Below are positions 15,355 to 52,652 of a stretch of 64,000 nucleotides of DNA, in pieces (the stretch's first letter is position 1; every line of letters starts with the position of its first letter). A program made the position numbers and the translations under genes. The stretch comes from Nitrospirota bacterium (GTDB lineage: Bacteria > Nitrospirota > Thermodesulfovibrionia > Thermodesulfovibrionales > Dissulfurispiraceae). The notes under the pieces were generated by a model. It did no database searches. It was not told the origin of the DNA and worked only from the letters and a program-made list of their open reading frames with translations. The DNA is taken from contig JBFMHE010000017.1 of assembly GCA_040752355.1 (NCBI GenBank), positions 1 to 64,000 on the forward strand, in the 5' to 3' direction.

Positions 15355-15516
15355 AGCGGTCAGCCGTCAGCCATCAGCTCTCAGCAAAAGCAAGGAAGCG
15401 CTCAGCCATCAGCTTTCAGCAATGCAGCAATCAGCAATCAGTTTCTCTATTAATAAATACTTATAAGTGCCGTCTCTCTTTGTCCTTTGCTGATTGCTGA
15501 CAGCTGATGGCTGTCT
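15355..15516. repeat. Heptad array A (AGCNNTC words, inverted arms), truB-purB gap
   Basis: Left arm: tandem 7-bp words from 15355 to 15446: AGCGGTC, AGCCGTC, AGCCATC, AGCTCTC, two diverged words, AGCGCTC, AGCCATC, AGCTTTC, an 8-bp word, AGCAATC twice. The spacer 15447-15488 includes the perfect palindrome ACTTATAAGT. Right arm, opposite orientation: GCTGATT, GCTGACA, GCTGATG, GCTGTCT at 15489-15516. The last word touches the truB stop codon (15516-15518). It could fold as a long imperfect hairpin. Confidence 0.85.
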
Positions 15517-16394
15517 TAAAGCTTGAATAACCTTTCTATCTTAATAGAATTATTCCGTATCTTTCCAATGCCGAAGAGGGCGCCCTCGGCATCCTTGAGC
15601 CGGATGAACGAAGACCGGAGCCGCTCCTCCACCCTTCCGCTCTCCTGTGCGAGGCAGACGGGATTCCCGTTTTGCGCCCTTTTGAGGTCGTTGCCGGAGA
15701 GCTGCTGCTCGGGCAGATGGCCGAGGGCGCGGTCGATGGAAAAGAGGGCGGAAGACTTCTCCGGCAGCTCCTCGACGGCCGCCGCGGTCTCGATAGTGAA
15801 GCCGCCTATGCGGGTGCGCCGCAATTCGGTGACATAGGCGCCTGTCCCCAGGGCGTTGCCGATATCGTTGCAGAGCGAGCGGAGGTACGTTCCTTTTGAG
15901 CACGATACCCGGACGGTAACGTAGGGGAGCGCGAAGGTCAGGAGCTCGATCGAGCTGATTGTCACCTTCCTCGCCTTTCTCTCGACCTCGACCCCGGCCC
16001 TGGCGAGCTTGTAGAGCGGCGTCCCTGCCACTTTGACAGCCGAATACATGGGAGGCATCTGCTCGATAGCGCCGACAAAAGCGTGCGCTGCTCTCTCTAC
16101 CGCCTCCCGCGTCACCGGCAGGTCATCGACCCTGCTGACGACGACGCCTTCCGCATCATACGTATCCGTAGACTCCCCGAGCTTCATGGTCATGACATAC
16201 TCTTTGTCCAGATCGGCGAGAAAGCCGGTGATCTTCGTCGCCTCATTCAGGCAGACCAGGAGCACTCCGGTGGCAAGCGGATCGAGCGTGCCGGCATGCC
16301 CCGCTTTCCTTACCTTGAAGCGCCGCTTTACCGCGGTCACCGCATCCTGCGAGGTGACGTCAAGAGCTTTGTTGAGATTGACTACTATATTCAT
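15516..16394 (-). CDS. truB: tRNA pseudouridine(55) synthase
   Basis: 292 residues. It converts U55 of the T-loop of tRNAs to pseudouridine. The signature GHAGTLDPLATGVL with the catalytic Asp is at about residues 32-45, followed by KEYVMTMKLGESTDTYD and the RVSCSKGTYLRSL motif III. The N-terminus is short (NIVVNLNKALDVTSQDAV) in place of the commoner G-x-L-x-x-D-K-P. The gene overlaps the lptD 3' end by 35 bp, so the two are probably translated from the same message. Its stop codon borders heptad array A. Confidence 0.95.
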   Translation of the reverse strand: MNIVVNLNKALDVTSQDAVTAVKRRFKVRKAGHAGTLDPLATGVLLVCLNEATKITGFLADLDKEYVMTMKLGESTDTYDAEGVVVSRVDDLPVTREAVERAAHAFVGAIEQMPPMYSAVKVAGTPLYKLARAGVEVERKARKVTISSIELLTFALPYVTVRVSCSKGTYLRSLCNDIGNALGTGAYVTELRRTRIGGFTIETAAAVEELPEKSSALFSIDRALGHLPEQQLSGNDLKRAQNGNPVCLAQESGRVEERLRSSFIRLKDAEGALFGIGKIRNNSIKIERLFKL

Positions 16395-18408
16395 AGAGCT
16401 TCAGGGGTCTGCCGAGTCCTTTCAGTTCGATGAGGATGAGAAAACTGTACTCAGGCGGCCTGATAGCGTCGCCCGGCCTCCTGGTGAGGGTCAGATTGAC
16501 CGCCCAGCACTGTTCGAGGTACTTGACGATGAGGGTGGAGTCGCGCAATCCTCCGCCTTTGAGGTCATACCAGAGCGTTGTATCCAGAGCCCACCGCTTG
16601 CTCAAGGCAGACGTGATGCCGCCGGTGAGCTGGAAGAGCTCGCTCGCACGGGAGTACCGTTCTCCGAGCCTGAGGTACGTCCCTTTGAAAACAGGCAGGC
16701 TGATATCCGCGTTCACCGTCTCCATCTTCCCCTTGTTGAAATCGTATGCGAGATCGGAGGTGACGGTAAAGGGGCCGCTCAGCGTGACGGCAAGCGTGGT
16801 AGGCGACAGCGGCCGGTCTCCTGCGTTGAAATTCAGAGACTGGGCCAGCGTCGAGGCGAGGGAAAATCTCCTGAAGGCAACGTTGTTATAGAGCGAGAAG
16901 CCGAGCGACGCTGTCTTGTCGCCGAGCTCGGTAGAATCGAAGACCGGCAGGGGATGCGTCTCGGGAATGAAGGTAAAGCTGACCGAGGGCTCTATGATGT
17001 GCGTTGCGGAGCTGTAATGCCGTGAAAGCCGGGTCAGCGCGTTGGCCCGGTATTCGAACGTCTCCCGGTGGGGAGAGGACTCGAAGGGAGCGCTGTTGCT
17101 CAGCTGGTAGGCGGTCTCTCTGAGCGTGAGCGACTGGAAGACCTGCACCCTGTCGCCGAAGCCATAGGAGAGCGTAGGAGCTATATCGATCCTCTGCCCC
17201 CGGGGCTCCTTATCTCTCCAGAAGTTGGCGATGCTCGAATTCAGCGAGAAGAGCAGCGGCCCGACGCTCGAGGGATGCACGACATAGCCCAGCTCGGGAA
17301 GCCGCTGGGGGACATTCGCCCCTTTGTCCTGCAGGTCGATCCAGTGCTGCCCGAGGAGATACAGCCGCGCATTTCTGAGCGGCACCGAGACCTCGGCGGA
17401 CGACTGGAGGAAGCGCTGGATGCGGACATCCCTCCGGTAGGCAAATTCTTTGTAGAAGTCCTCTTCGTTGACGTAATTCAGGTCGACAAACGCCCTCGCA
17501 TCGCCGATCTGCTGCTCATGGAGGCCTTTGAACTCGAAGATGTCCTTTTTCAGCCGGTATCCCTCTCGCTCCAGGTTGTCCGCCTCGCGGTCGCGGAGGT
17601 GGTACGCGGACCACTCCCCCCGCTTCGTAAAATCGAGGTAGCGGTACTCGACGCCCTTCCCGATGCCGCGCTTGCTGTAGTAATCGAGATAGACGGTCGC
17701 ATCCTTGTTCTCGTCGATTGCCCAGAAAAAGGAGGTGCTGAACTGGAACCCCTTGGTCGAGCTGCTCCCGATGTAGGGGAAGAGGAACCCTGTCTGCCGC
17801 TCGCTCGTGATGGGCGCCCATAACGCGGGAGAGTAGAGGATCGGCAGTCCCTTGATCCGGTAGGTTACATTCCGCGCAGTCACCTTTCTGCCGACGACGA
17901 TATCGACCTTGTCCCCTTTGAAACACCAGTCGGGCCTTTCCGACTCTTCGTAATCGCAGGTGGTGAAAGAGGCTGACGAGGCGTAGTAGTGGTTCTCCTT
18001 GACCTTCTCGACGCTGGTGCCGTCGACCCAGTAGTCGCCTTTTTTGAAGAAGATGAGCGCGTTATGGAGCTTCCCCGTTTTGGTATCGAGGTTCATCTCG
18101 GCCCGTTCGGTATTGATGAAGGTATCGGCATCTTCGAAAACGACGTTGCCCGTCGCCTTCGCGTCAGAGGTGTTCTCGTAGAGGACGGCATGGTCGGCGA
18201 GGAGCACGGCGCCGTCTTTCTCGATCCGTACATTGCCCGTTGCCACATACTTGGCCTCTTCAGGGACGTGCTCGAGGTTATCGGCGGTAATCGTCGTAGC
18301 AAAAGACAACGGGGAGGTGAGAAGTGAAAAGTAAGAGATAAAGAACAAAAAGCACGACACAAAAAGAACGTGCTTCATTCTCTTACGCTTTGATCTCTCC
18401 TCTTTCAC
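16360..18408 (-). CDS. lptD: LPS-assembly outer-membrane protein LptD
   Basis: 682 residues from GTG 18408 (AGGAG 6 nt upstream; ATG 18378 is an alternative). It has a signal peptide (hydrophobic core about 14-36), then an N-terminal OstA/LptA-like beta-jellyroll (TITADNLEHVPEEAKYVATGNVRI), then a large LptD beta-barrel domain with the GLPILYSPALWAPI region. It inserts LPS into the outer leaflet with LptE. The two conserved Cys in the early barrel region (SFTTCDYEESERPDWCF) recall the disulphide-bearing segment. Residues 19-32 of the signal peptide are encoded by one arm of heptad array H, an unusual case of a repeat array co-opted as coding sequence. Confidence 0.93.
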   Translation of the reverse strand: MKEERSKRKRMKHVLFVSCFLFFISYFSLLTSPLSFATTITADNLEHVPEEAKYVATGNVRIEKDGAVLLADHAVLYENTSDAKATGNVVFEDADTFINTERAEMNLDTKTGKLHNALIFFKKGDYWVDGTSVEKVKENHYYASSASFTTCDYEESERPDWCFKGDKVDIVVGRKVTARNVTYRIKGLPILYSPALWAPITSERQTGFLFPYIGSSSTKGFQFSTSFFWAIDENKDATVYLDYYSKRGIGKGVEYRYLDFTKRGEWSAYHLRDREADNLEREGYRLKKDIFEFKGLHEQQIGDARAFVDLNYVNEEDFYKEFAYRRDVRIQRFLQSSAEVSVPLRNARLYLLGQHWIDLQDKGANVPQRLPELGYVVHPSSVGPLLFSLNSSIANFWRDKEPRGQRIDIAPTLSYGFGDRVQVFQSLTLRETAYQLSNSAPFESSPHRETFEYRANALTRLSRHYSSATHIIEPSVSFTFIPETHPLPVFDSTELGDKTASLGFSLYNNVAFRRFSLASTLAQSLNFNAGDRPLSPTTLAVTLSGPFTVTSDLAYDFNKGKMETVNADISLPVFKGTYLRLGERYSRASELFQLTGGITSALSKRWALDTTLWYDLKGGGLRDSTLIVKYLEQCWAVNLTLTRRPGDAIRPPEYSFLILIELKGLGRPLKLYEYSSQSQQSS

Positions 18409-18502
18409 GGTTGCTCCTTGCCCTTTACGTTCAGTTGTTACTTCCTGTTCCTCACTTCTTACTTCTCACTTCCTGCTTCTCACTTTTTACCTCTCAGCTG
18501 TC
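18314..18502. repeat. Heptad array H (ACTTCTY words), folC-lptD gap and lptD 5' end
   Basis: Right arm at 18440-18502 in 7-bp steps: ACTTCCT, GTTCCTC, ACTTCTT, ACTTCTC, ACTTCCT, GCTTCTC, ACTTTTT, ACCTCTC, AGCTGTC; the last base is the first base of the folC stop codon. The left arm is in reverse orientation at 18314-18355 (GAGGTGA, GAAGTGA, AAAGTAA, GAGATAA, AGAACAA, AAAGCAC) and lies inside lptD. The spacer (18356-18439) holds the lptD start codon and ribosome site. Same word family as array B. Confidence 0.8.
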
Positions 18503-19851
18503 TACAAGCTTTCCCTCAGCGTCCCCAGCACAGCGGTCTCCCCGAGGGCCTCTTTGGCTTCGCCTATGGTATAGAATGAACCGGTGATAAGAACCAGCCC
18601 GGACTTCCGCGCTGCCGCGCTCCTCTTCGCCAGCTCGATCGCCTCTCGTACCGAGGGAGCGGTGGCAGAGGCGTACCCGAGCTCCAAGGCGTACGCCGCC
18701 AGCTGCGAAGGAGCGGCAGCCCTCCCGTAATCAGGAGCGGTAAAGACGATCTCCGCTGCGAGGGGCAGGAGCGGCGTGAGTAGAGCGGGTATATCCTTGT
18801 CGGCCATGACCCCCATGACCAGCACGATCTCCCTGTCCGATAAGGCGCCTTGAATGAAGCGGGCGAGGGCCCGGGCCGCGTCCGCATTATGCGCCCCGTC
18901 GATCAGTATAGGAGGCAGGATCGGGGGGGCGCCCTCGATCCACTCGAGCCTTCCGCGCCACTCGGTCGCAGCGAGCCCCTTTTTTAGGGGGTCAAGGGGC
19001 AAGGGGCGAGGGGCCTGTCCCGTTTCGAGGAGCGCTATCATCGATGCCTTGACAGCGAGGCAGGCGTTGACGAGCTGGTGCTCGCCGGCGAGGGGCGTAT
19101 GGAGGCCGGTAATACCATGAAGGCTCTCGCGATAGTCGAAAGTGATTCCCGTGAGGCTGGATGATCGCAGAGCGCCGCTGAAGTCTCTCCCGCAGGTAAA
19201 GAGGGGGGCCGAGGCATGGCGGGCTGCTCCGGCGATCACAGCCTCGGCTTCGGGTTCCTGCGGGGCGGTGACGACCGGGATGCCCGGTTTTATGATGCCC
19301 GCCTTCTCCCGTGCGATCTCGACCAGCGTCGTGCCGAGGAACTCTTTGTGGTCCATGCCGATTTTCGTTATCACCGAGACCGCCGGGGTGAGGACATTCG
19401 TCGCATCGAGCCGCCCTCCCATGCCGACCTCCATAACCGCCCAATCGACACTGTTGCGGGTGAAGTGCAGGAACGCCATCGCGGTCACGAATTCGAAAAA
19501 GGTGGGATCGGGCAGGGGAGCCGGCGCGTGGCGCAGGGCGGAGCGTATCTCTCCGGTGAGCTCCACCACCTCCGCCTCGCTTATCTTCCTGCCGTCGATC
19601 GTCATCCGCTCGGTGAAGCTCACCAGGTGCGGGGAGGTGAAGAGCCCCACCTTGAAGCCGTAGGCCCTCAGGATGGATGCCGTCATGGCAGCTGTAGAGC
19701 CCTTGCCGTTGGTGCCTGCCACATGGACAGCACGGAGCCGGCGGTGGGGATCTCCTATGACGGAGAGTATCCGCTCGGTCTTGTCGAGGCCGAGCTTGAT
19801 ACCGTGCTTCTGGAGCCCGTAAAGATAACCGATGGCATCGGAATAGCTCAT
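18502..19851 (-). CDS. folC: Folylpolyglutamate synthase / dihydrofolate synthase
   Basis: 449 residues. ATP-dependent ligase adding glutamate to dihydropteroate and to folates. The Mur-ligase P-loop is VHVAGTNGKGSTAAM near residue 43; FTSPHLVSFTERM, MEVGMGGRLDATNV and the ITKIGMDHKEFLG motifs follow in order; the C-terminal Mur domain has LIDGAHNADAARAL. Length and motifs are those of bifunctional bacterial FolC. It sits in the usual accD-folC order, downstream of accD on the minus strand. Confidence 0.95.
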   Translation of the reverse strand: MSYSDAIGYLYGLQKHGIKLGLDKTERILSVIGDPHRRLRAVHVAGTNGKGSTAAMTASILRAYGFKVGLFTSPHLVSFTERMTIDGRKISEAEVVELTGEIRSALRHAPAPLPDPTFFEFVTAMAFLHFTRNSVDWAVMEVGMGGRLDATNVLTPAVSVITKIGMDHKEFLGTTLVEIAREKAGIIKPGIPVVTAPQEPEAEAVIAGAARHASAPLFTCGRDFSGALRSSSLTGITFDYRESLHGITGLHTPLAGEHQLVNACLAVKASMIALLETGQAPRPLPLDPLKKGLAATEWRGRLEWIEGAPPILPPILIDGAHNADAARALARFIQGALSDREIVLVMGVMADKDIPALLTPLLPLAAEIVFTAPDYGRAAAPSQLAAYALELGYASATAPSVREAIELAKRSAAARKSGLVLITGSFYTIGEAKEALGETAVLGTLRESL

Positions 19852-22950: not shown

Positions 22951-23083
22951 AATAACAGACAAGTAAGAAGTAAGAAGTAGGGGAGCTTAGGGGAGTTCTT
23001 CTATTCTGACTTCTGTCTTCACTTCCTACTTCTCAGCTCTTACTTCTTACTTGTCTGTTATTACTTCTCACTTGTCAGTTCAG
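22951..23083. repeat. Heptad array B (ACTTCTY words), trpB/trpB2 divergent gap
   Basis: Right arm in 7-bp steps from 23009 to 23083: ACTTCTG, a 5-bp partial, ACTTCCT, ACTTCTC, AGCTCTT, ACTTCTT, ACTTGTC, TGTTATT, ACTTCTC, ACTTGTC, AGTTCAG. The left arm is in reverse orientation at 22951-22980. The arms contain a perfect 25-bp inverted repeat (22951-22975 with 23038-23062). The array stops directly before the trpB2 ribosome site (GGAGG, 23083-23087) and on the other side reaches the trpBA promoter. Confidence 0.88.
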
Positions 23084-51003: not shown

Positions 51004-52566
51004 ATGTTCGGTCAGCGTGATTTCGATATTTTGAACAGCATAGATGACGGCGTCTACTATGTCGCTTCCGACAGGAAGATAGAGTACTGGAACAGGGGGG
51101 CGGAGGCCCTCACCGGCTACGCGCCCGGAGATGTCCGGAAGAAGCGCTGCGATGAAGCGATACGCTACGAGGATGAGGCAGGAAGCCCGATCCCGGCCTA
51201 CGAATACCCTGCGGTCCTCTGCCTCCAATCAGGCAAGCCGGTAGTAAAGAATCTCGTCCTCGTGGGCAGGGATGACGAGAAGCGTTTTGTCGAGGAGCTC
51301 GCCTCCCCTGTGCTCAAGGGGGGGAAGGTGATCGGGGTCCTGTCGCTGCTGAGAGACAACGCACGGGTCTTCCCGGTCGTGGAGGCCCGTGTGAGGGACC
51401 AGCGGCGGGACCGTCTCATCCCTATCTGCGCCTGGTGCAAAAAGATCAGGACCGAAGAGGATACCTGGAACCAGATCGAGAAGTATCTTACCAACGAGGG
51501 CTTCGGTGTCTTCACGCACGGGGTCTGCCCCGACTGTGCGGATAAAATCTTCGAGAAGAAGATCTACCTCGAGAGCTACCAGAAGATCTGCAAGGCCATA
51601 AGCTCGAGCCTCTCCCTGAGCGAAGTGCTCAACCTGATCGTGACGAACGCCGTCAAGGTGATGAGCGTCAAGGCCTGCATGCTGAGACTCCTCAACAAAG
51701 AGACGCAGACGCTCGAAGTGGCCGCGCATCACGGCCTCAGCGAGAAGTACATCAAGAAAGGGCCGGTGGACTACGACCCGAGCATCTACGATGCGCTCGC
51801 CGGCAAGGCGGTCTCGATCTACGATATCAGCGCCGACCCCGAGGCGCGGTACCGCAGGGAGGCCGAAGAGGAAGGCATACGGAGCATTCTTTCGATCCCC
51901 GTAGCCTTCAAGAAAGAGGTGATCGGCGTACTGAGGATGTATACCGGCGAGCCGGTGAAGTACAAGTCTGAAGATATGAAGTTCATGACCGCGATAGCGG
52001 AGCAGGCGGCGATTGCGATCATGAACGCGCGGATGTTCGAGTCCACGGTGTCGCGGGCAAAGGAGTACCTGCGGGTATTCGAGGAGGTGACCAAGGCGGT
52101 GAGCTCCACGCTCGACCTCGATGAGGTGCTGCTCCTCATCGTGAGAAAGCTCCCCGAGGTCATGCACCTCAGGGCAGCGACGATACGGCTGCTCGATACG
52201 ACCCGAAAGAAGCTGGAGCTGGCCGCAGCCCACGGCCTGAGCGATAAGTACCTTTCCCGCGGGCCGGTCGATACCGAGGAAAATGTGCGGGAGGCGCTCC
52301 AGACCAGGCCGGTCGCCATTTACGATGTGACTACCGATCCGGGAATACATTACCAGAAAGAGGCTCTCGAAGAAGGCATAAAGAGCATGCTGACGCTCCC
52401 CATTGTCGCCAAGGGAAGCGTTATCGGGGTGCTGCGCCTGCTCACCGATGCCCCGCGGCAGTTCAGCGAAGAGGACATCTCGTTTTCCGCCTCGCTGGCT
52501 GAAGTCTGCGGGACCGCCATCGAAAACGCGCGCATGTACGAGCAATTAAAAAGCCGTAATGCGTGA
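51004..52566 (+). CDS. PAS-CxxC zinc-finger-GAF-GAF sensor protein
   Basis: 520 residues. Residues 1-118 are a PAS domain (FDILNSIDDGVYYVASDRKIEYWNRG). Residues 140-180 contain C142-x2-C145 ... H172-x2-C175-x2-C178 (ICAWCKKIRTEEDTW, THGVCPDC), a zinc-site-like module often attached to PAS or receiver domains. Two GAF domains follow, about 205-345 and 370-512, highly similar to each other (SEKYIKKGPVDYD/SDKYLSRGPVDTE; IGVLRMYTGEP/IGVLRLLTDAP), evidently an internal duplication. No kinase or DNA-binding output is present, so it may modulate another protein. The stop codon lies in the first word of array F. Confidence 0.87.
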   Translation: MFGQRDFDILNSIDDGVYYVASDRKIEYWNRGAEALTGYAPGDVRKKRCDEAIRYEDEAGSPIPAYEYPAVLCLQSGKPVVKNLVLVGRDDEKRFVEELASPVLKGGKVIGVLSLLRDNARVFPVVEARVRDQRRDRLIPICAWCKKIRTEEDTWNQIEKYLTNEGFGVFTHGVCPDCADKIFEKKIYLESYQKICKAISSSLSLSEVLNLIVTNAVKVMSVKACMLRLLNKETQTLEVAAHHGLSEKYIKKGPVDYDPSIYDALAGKAVSIYDISADPEARYRREAEEEGIRSILSIPVAFKKEVIGVLRMYTGEPVKYKSEDMKFMTAIAEQAAIAIMNARMFESTVSRAKEYLRVFEEVTKAVSSTLDLDEVLLLIVRKLPEVMHLRAATIRLLDTTRKKLELAAAHGLSDKYLSRGPVDTEENVREALQTRPVAIYDVTTDPGIHYQKEALEEGIKSMLTLPIVAKGSVIGVLRLLTDAPRQFSEEDISFSASLAEVCGTAIENARMYEQLKSRNA

Positions 52567-52652
52567 TGCGTAACGGGTGATCAGGAAGAGACAGAAAGTC
52601 TCTCCTTGGTTTGTTACCGATTACGCGTTACGGATTACGTATCACGGATTGT
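52555..52652. repeat. Heptad array F (TTACGNA/CGTAATG words), GAF gene-fdhD gap
   Basis: Left arm 52555-52582: CGTAATG, CGTGATG, CGTAACG, GGTGATC; the first word lies in the last codons and the second contains the stop codon of the GAF gene. The spacer contains the hairpin AGAGAC-AGAAA-GTCTCT. Right arm in opposite orientation, 52613-52652: GTTACCG, ATTACGC, GTTACGG, ATTACGT, ATCACGG, then ATTGT, touching the fdhD ATG at 52653. The array fills the complete gap between the two genes, leaving no ribosome site. Confidence 0.87.

Follow-up and report, generated by a model that had tools for sequence, protein, structure and literature searches.

An inverted array of degenerate heptads as the probable source of the LptD signal-peptide core in a Nitrospirota bacterium

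Short tandem repeats with a unit of seven or eight nucleotides have been described in several bacterial lineages. In Geobacter metallireducens, the 'global regulator binding sites' of classes 1-3 are paired tandem octads or heptads and putative sites of global regulators (PMC2700814). They contain octads (GTTGCTYN) or heptads (MTYCTGA) in four to five tandem copies, mostly as opposite-strand pairs separated by a variable distance; the multicopy sequences of this genome occur within genes too, each class is proposed to bind IHF/HU, and insertion sequences placed at a fixed distance are a further mark of these sites (PMC2700814). The TAACTGA direct repeats of Beggiatoaceae and the heptamers of cyanobacteria form arrays near start codons, and indels in steps of 7 nt distinguish neighbouring strains (PMC4679880). 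TAACTGA is one fixed word located mostly just upstream of starts, with a proposed post-transcriptional role; signal peptide coding is not described for it (PMC4679880). Rickettsia palindromic elements (RPE) are about 150 bp long and form sequence families, each with a conserved peptide, that are found in frame in unrelated genes as well as between genes (reviewed in PMC10969869).

The arrays described here came to light in a window of 64,000 nucleotides from a Nitrospirota genome of 3.57 Mb, whose relatives belong to the order Thermodesulfovibrionales. These Nitrospirota are bacteria of groundwater and sediment. The lptD gene of the window is placed directly after folC and has the following features at its 5' end:

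16360..18408, minus strand: lptD, 682 aa, GTG start at 18408 (open reading frame; Pfam PF04453, E=1.2e-24; orthologue in 38/40 relatives)
18298..18408, minus strand: predicted LptD signal peptide, residues 1-37, with n-region MKEERSKRKRMKH, an h-region and c-region SFA (from sequence, mature TITAD aligned across orthologues)
18314..18355, minus strand: degenerate heptad arm with a pyrimidine-rich coding strand, LptD residues 18-32, the signal peptide hydrophobic core (lag-7 identity 22/35; matches the partner arm as peptide and as inverted DNA)
18414..18419, minus strand: Shine-Dalgarno-like AAGGAG, 5 nt upstream of the lptD GTG (read from sequence)
18440..18496 (or 18497), plus strand: partner heptad arm, ACTTCTT/CTCACTT on the plus strand and purine-rich GAAGTAA/GAAGTGA on the lptD strand (TRF periods 7, 14 and 28; lag-7 identity 24/35 at 18449-18492)

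Read on the plus strand, positions 18314-18355 form a run of degenerate heptads (GAGGTGA GAAGTGA AAAGTAA GAGATAA AGAACAA AAAGCAC). The first-pass annotation had placed this arm in frame in lptD as the coding sequence of the hydrophobic core, at residues 19-32 or so; we find it in frame and coding for residues 18-32 (SCFLFFISYFSLLTS), inside an N-terminus that reads MKEERSKRKRMKHVLFVSCFLFFISYFSLLTSPLSFA followed by TTITAD. By sequence rules, this N-terminus has the three parts of a Sec signal peptide (MKEERSKRKRMKH as n-region, VLFVSCFLFFISYFSLLTSPL as h-region, then SFA), and the conserved mature start TITAD comes directly afterwards. In-frame starts after the segment are a TTG at codon 34, within the signal peptide, and a GTG at codon 55, within the conserved mature sequence; a credible downstream lptD start, which would have taken the arm out of the protein, is therefore absent. 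The partner arm (18440-18496) occupies the folC-lptD interval and falls within the predicted lptD 5' leader. No promoter-like site was found, and one terminator-like site lies within folC on the plus strand.

Like the Geobacter sites, the window pair (18314-18355 and 18440-18496) and the 15 oriented pairs that we identified in five genomes consist of tandem 7- or 8-mers paired on opposite strands at variable distance. However, each Geobacter class has one alignable word family, whereas the words here vary from array to array within a genome and between orthologous sites. The arrays studied here also code for signal peptides, a term absent from the text of the Geobacter report (PMC2700814). The window words (GAAGTGA, AAAGTAA and GAGGTGA) differ from the fixed TAACTGA word as well. 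As in RPE, repeat DNA lies in frame inside unrelated housekeeping genes (LeuRS and Tgt in the relative G004; across five genomes, 56 coding windows internal to genes), but what the arrays have in common is period and purine/pyrimidine polarity, with no shared word or peptide, and signal peptides are their preferred site. No description of signal peptides encoded by repeats turned up in the three reports above or in a literature search that covered few subscription papers.

We propose that positions 18314-18355 form one of the arms of an inverted array of degenerate heptads and now provide the LptD signal peptide with its hydrophobic core, and that the array represents a lineage-wide class recruited repeatedly (probability of about 0.72). 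The arrays, with a period of 7 or less often 8 and usually arranged as purine arm, short spacer and pyrimidine arm, are spread over Thermodesulfovibrionales genomes in inter- and intragenic positions. The key property, already seen by the first-pass annotation, is that every word comes to be read in each of the three frames: seven leaves a remainder of one when divided by three, and an array thus specifies one cyclic heptapeptide whatever the frame. The pyrimidine strand, with a consensus close to YYYRYTN, is free of stop codons and yields a peptide rich in Leu, Phe, Ser, Tyr, Cys, Val and Thr, and the 5' purine arm, when translated, gives a hydrophilic and frequently basic stretch. The purine strand often contains TGA, TAA or TAG, in keeping with the position of the window's purine arm upstream of the start codon. 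Because the peptide is cyclic and independent of frame, and the purine arm precedes the pyrimidine arm, an array lying in the 5' end of a gene for a secreted protein would be an almost ready-made Sec signal peptide. Most likely, arrays arise, move or expand and are then kept at such 5' ends, where they would be tolerated because a signal peptide requires only charge followed by hydrophobicity. An array could displace the old signal peptide and afterwards drift or give way to another word. From their sequences, the heptad-coded peptides would work as signal peptides; selection on the arrays at these sites is presumably permissive only, and slippage, recombination or insertion may drive their turnover.

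The recurrence of heptads at the lptD site is the main evidence for recruitment. Orthologues from 38 of 40 relatives, together with 59 further or overlapping loci, gave 68 distinct LptD signal peptide regions from Thermodesulfovibrionales, mostly in metagenome-assembled genomes and not independent of each other. We scored a period as strong when lag identity was at least 20/28 over the signal peptide region and used lags 4, 5, 10, 11 and 13 as controls; some choices of lag and region followed sight of the data, and control lags and control genes were handled identically. Lag 7 reached the cut-off in 28/68 regions and lag 8 in 3/68, one of them at lag 8 only, whereas each of the five control lags reached it in 0/68. 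In 27/28 of the heptad regions the period exceeded that of synonymous recodings (P<=0.01; null mean 15 versus 23.7 observed), which identifies DNA repetition, not the amino acids, as its cause. The proposal that a repeat has been recruited as coding sequence thus extends beyond the window to 28-29 of 68 LptD and 12 of 30 TolB orthologues, with octads in a few. Words in the LptD signal peptides include CCTATTG, CTTACTT, CTCGTTA, TTTACTG, TCTACTG, TTCACTA, TTTGCTG, TTCACTT, TTTACTC and TCCACTC, and the majority of all words match YYYRYTN. Each encodes a single cyclic heptapeptide in its three frames (for example, LLPIAYC, FTVYCLL or LVTRYSL). In the comparison of orthologue N-termini, the same amino acids without period 7 in the DNA were not encountered; other amino acids follow other DNA words. 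Furthermore, both arms are coding in several relatives, with the purine arm as n-region (ARGYRRETIG) and the pyrimidine arm as h-region (LLPIAYCLLP). The folC and lptD genes of relatives abut or overlap, which means that the array there is no intergenic feature extending into the gene.

The two arms of the window are also predicted to pair in the lptD transcript:

18320..18473, minus strand: predicted RNA hairpin of about 34 pairs between the purine leader arm (18439-18473) and the signal peptide-coding pyrimidine arm (18320-18355) (RNAfold; function only possible)

The arrays might thus be kept for RNA control, with such a hairpin acting on lptD at the level of translation, early elongation or cleavage of the mRNA and the signal peptide sequence as a by-product. 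The predicted structure places the ribosome-binding site and the start codon of lptD in its loop, and RNAfold gives -63.7 kcal/mol for 18300-18501 (z -3.59); for L004, z is -4.31. Heptad-positive orthologues also have a lower mean z than the others (-1.88, with 13/31 below -2, versus -0.48, with 2/37; P=0.005). However, fewer than half of them pass z<-2, and pairing is an automatic consequence of inverted arms, which are present genome-wide. With the peptide held fixed, the pairing of the window arms was not above that of synonymous recodings (P=0.06 to 0.24). As the pairing does not go beyond what the peptide implies, we did not adopt an RNA function. A search of Rfam returned merely weak matches to plant microRNA precursors, under the gathering score and typical of any long hairpin. 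A regulatory role of the predicted hairpin around the lptD start is possible, and RNA control as the explanation for the segment is unlikely. In L258, the signal peptide-coding region of lptD has a GGGGGG/CCCCCC hairpin too.

Compared with RNA control, chance is a slightly less probable explanation, already disfavoured, according to which a Leu/Phe/Ser-rich signal peptide with T-ending codons yields a weak period 7 in the absence of any repeat origin. Lag-7 identity of 18314-18355 (22/35) was the top value among lags 3-14, and dinucleotide shuffles gave P=0.0012 for this period, or 0.005 when several lags were considered. Synonymous recoding of the segment gave P=0.007 with genome codon usage and 0.067 with local third-position composition, and P=0.02 to 0.21 over the whole signal peptide region of the window; the upper values (0.07 and 0.21) speak for chance. 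The window signal peptide scores 18/28 at lag 7, under the cut-off applied to orthologues. A T-rich Leu/Phe/Ser peptide is partly periodic by nature, which makes the window alone unconvincing: by itself, the segment is moderately significant, and its repeat origin suggestive but not decisive. The match to the partner arm argues against chance at two levels. The inverted DNA match between 18314-18355 and 18440-18497 has P=0.002 against shuffles, and translation of the partner arm's pyrimidine strand gives SCYFLFLTSYFSLPASHFLPLS, with which the signal peptide SC-FLFFISYFSLLTS---PLS aligns at a score of 45. Just 3/332 signal peptide-like N-termini in five genomes attain this score, and those three are heptad-like as well. 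Both matches support repeat ancestry of the window signal peptide. Chance also leaves unexplained the strong period 7 of the sister clade and of 28/68 orthologues, when none of the five control periods recurs.

Recruitment of an array is further supported by the turnover of words on the LptD tree. The first-pass annotation had raised constraint on the repeat as an alternative to recruitment; this does not hold, as words change among close relatives while the mature protein is nearly unchanged. In a maximum-likelihood phylogeny built on mature LptD, the heptad trait needs 13 changes, 12 of them forced by well-supported branches. Shuffled labels need a mean of 22 changes, and the trait is thus also clustered on the tree. 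The sister clade of the window LptD consists of seven members with heptad signal peptides, mostly with CCTATTG (support 98/99). Arrays in near relatives include ACTGGTCT (L021), TTTACTG (L252), TCTACTG (L254), ATCATGT (L256 and L258), TTCACTA (L259) and TTTGCTG (L260). The distance from start to mature sequence ranges from 111 to 189 nt across five of these near relatives with a placed start, L256 included. The lptD site retains heptads as the word changes, which is recruitment and turnover rather than conservation. In L254, L256 and L258, ATCATGT, as a second type of array, encodes a portion of the long n-region (VSCIMYH) at the lptD 5' end.

A unit length that is no multiple of three could also suggest phase variation, in which gain or loss of heptads would switch the lptD frame on and off. 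Phase-variable simple repeats are pure tandem units whose varying number shifts the frame, whereas the units here are degenerate and slippage is expected to be rare. Moreover, signal peptide lengths in the sister clade of the window differ by -27, -18, 0, +9 and +24 nt, every one a multiple of three, and all full-length LptD orthologues that we read stay open through the signal peptide. LptD is essential in E. coli. Phase variation is, on these grounds, very improbable. Selection at the protein level could favour heptad periodicity in the signal peptide and leave that of the DNA as a mere consequence. This reading would account for the seven-residue periodicity seen in peptides such as PIAYCLLPIAYCLLP, but it is already refuted for the orthologues, in which the DNA period far exceeds synonymous recodings in 27/28, peptides differ between species and identical words are also intergenic, and as a general account it is the least credible.

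The first-pass annotation had also suggested looking for heptad-coded segments in the signal peptides of other secreted proteins, and this held for some of them. TolB signal peptides are heptad-coded in 12/30 orthologues, among them the window genome's own TolB (21/28). PilQ has a heptad-coded signal peptide in 1/30 relatives, and BamA and Pal have none (0/30 each). The control, the N-terminus and upstream region of RecA, was heptad-coded in 0/30.

Genome-wide counts were made on 1.87 Mb sampled from five genomes in 20-kb stretches, with masked N runs removed and signal peptides called by a crude hydrophobicity and cleavage rule. Arrays at lags 7 and 8 were well in excess of those at control lags in this sample, and heptad words were found between genes as well as in coding sequence. 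Arrays occur at 11/332 signal peptide-like N-termini (3.3%, with L067 11522 still counted), compared to 8/1191 other N-termini (odds ratio 5.1, P=6e-4) and 56/9621 internal coding windows (odds ratio 5.9, P=1e-5). L067 11522, an apparent heptad signal peptide of the window genome, is probably a spurious open reading frame, as its downstream frame is unnatural. Array frequency was 3.2% in N-terminal membrane segments, 2.7% in intergenic windows and about 0.6% in other coding windows. LptD and TolB are clearly above the signal peptide average (about 3%), and permissiveness alone leaves such hot spots unaccounted for.

The orientation of the arrays is biased as well. At signal peptides the coding strand is mostly the pyrimidine strand, whereas inside other genes orientation is balanced. 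Neighbouring inverted pairs have the purine arm 5' and the pyrimidine arm 3' in 15/15 orientable cases from the five sampled genomes, and no pair had the pyrimidine arm first. A purine-first pair reads purine-first from both strands, so that either strand tends to code for a hydrophilic and then a hydrophobic stretch. More tentatively, and at somewhat below even odds, inverted heptad and octad arrays of fixed polarity may constitute a self-renewing class of DNA in which all six frames tend towards signal peptide-like, hydrophilic-then-hydrophobic coding. At lptD and tolB, the export signal and the folded mRNA would then be hypervariable beside a conserved mature protein, whether this amounts to a tuned expression device or to signal peptides being continually born de novo from repeats.

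Classic work on yeast invertase is said to have found that random or near-random sequences work as secretion signals, gross hydrophobicity and charge being sufficient. In the present case the sequence comes, repeatedly, from a natural class of repeats. The LptD and TolB sites would be a concrete example from nature, seen in replicate, in which repeat DNA of non-coding character enters a conserved and probably essential protein. The lptD site would offer dozens of comparable events, with a simple reason (a period coprime to 3 and a stop-free hydrophobic strand) for working in any frame, and makes signal peptide birth and turnover directly testable. For annotators, N-termini in these genomes may be repeat-derived and unsuited to homology or start-site transfer.

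We also identified arrays elsewhere in the window and in relatives. A GGGGCAA-type heptad run at 18989-19014, roughly 490 bp 5' of the lptD start, is in frame in folC (QAPRPLPLDPLKK) and is probably a further in-frame array of the same operon. Other adjacent arrays with mutually inverted words are at 15402-15513 (TCAGCAA/TTGCTGA), 22961-23078 (AAGTAAG/TCTTACTT) and 52555-52650 (CGTAATG-type/TTACGGA). In the relative G004, LeuRS (L033 998-3577) contains three heptad stretches and the tRNA-guanine transglycosylase Tgt (L033 10528-11655) contains one; three of these LeuRS/Tgt stretches coincide with inserts of 7, 4 and 5 residues relative to solved homologues. The same genome has inverted octad/heptad pairs inside open reading frames at L034 12311-12401, L034 19211-19308 and L043 16925-17044, all purine-first on the genome strand.
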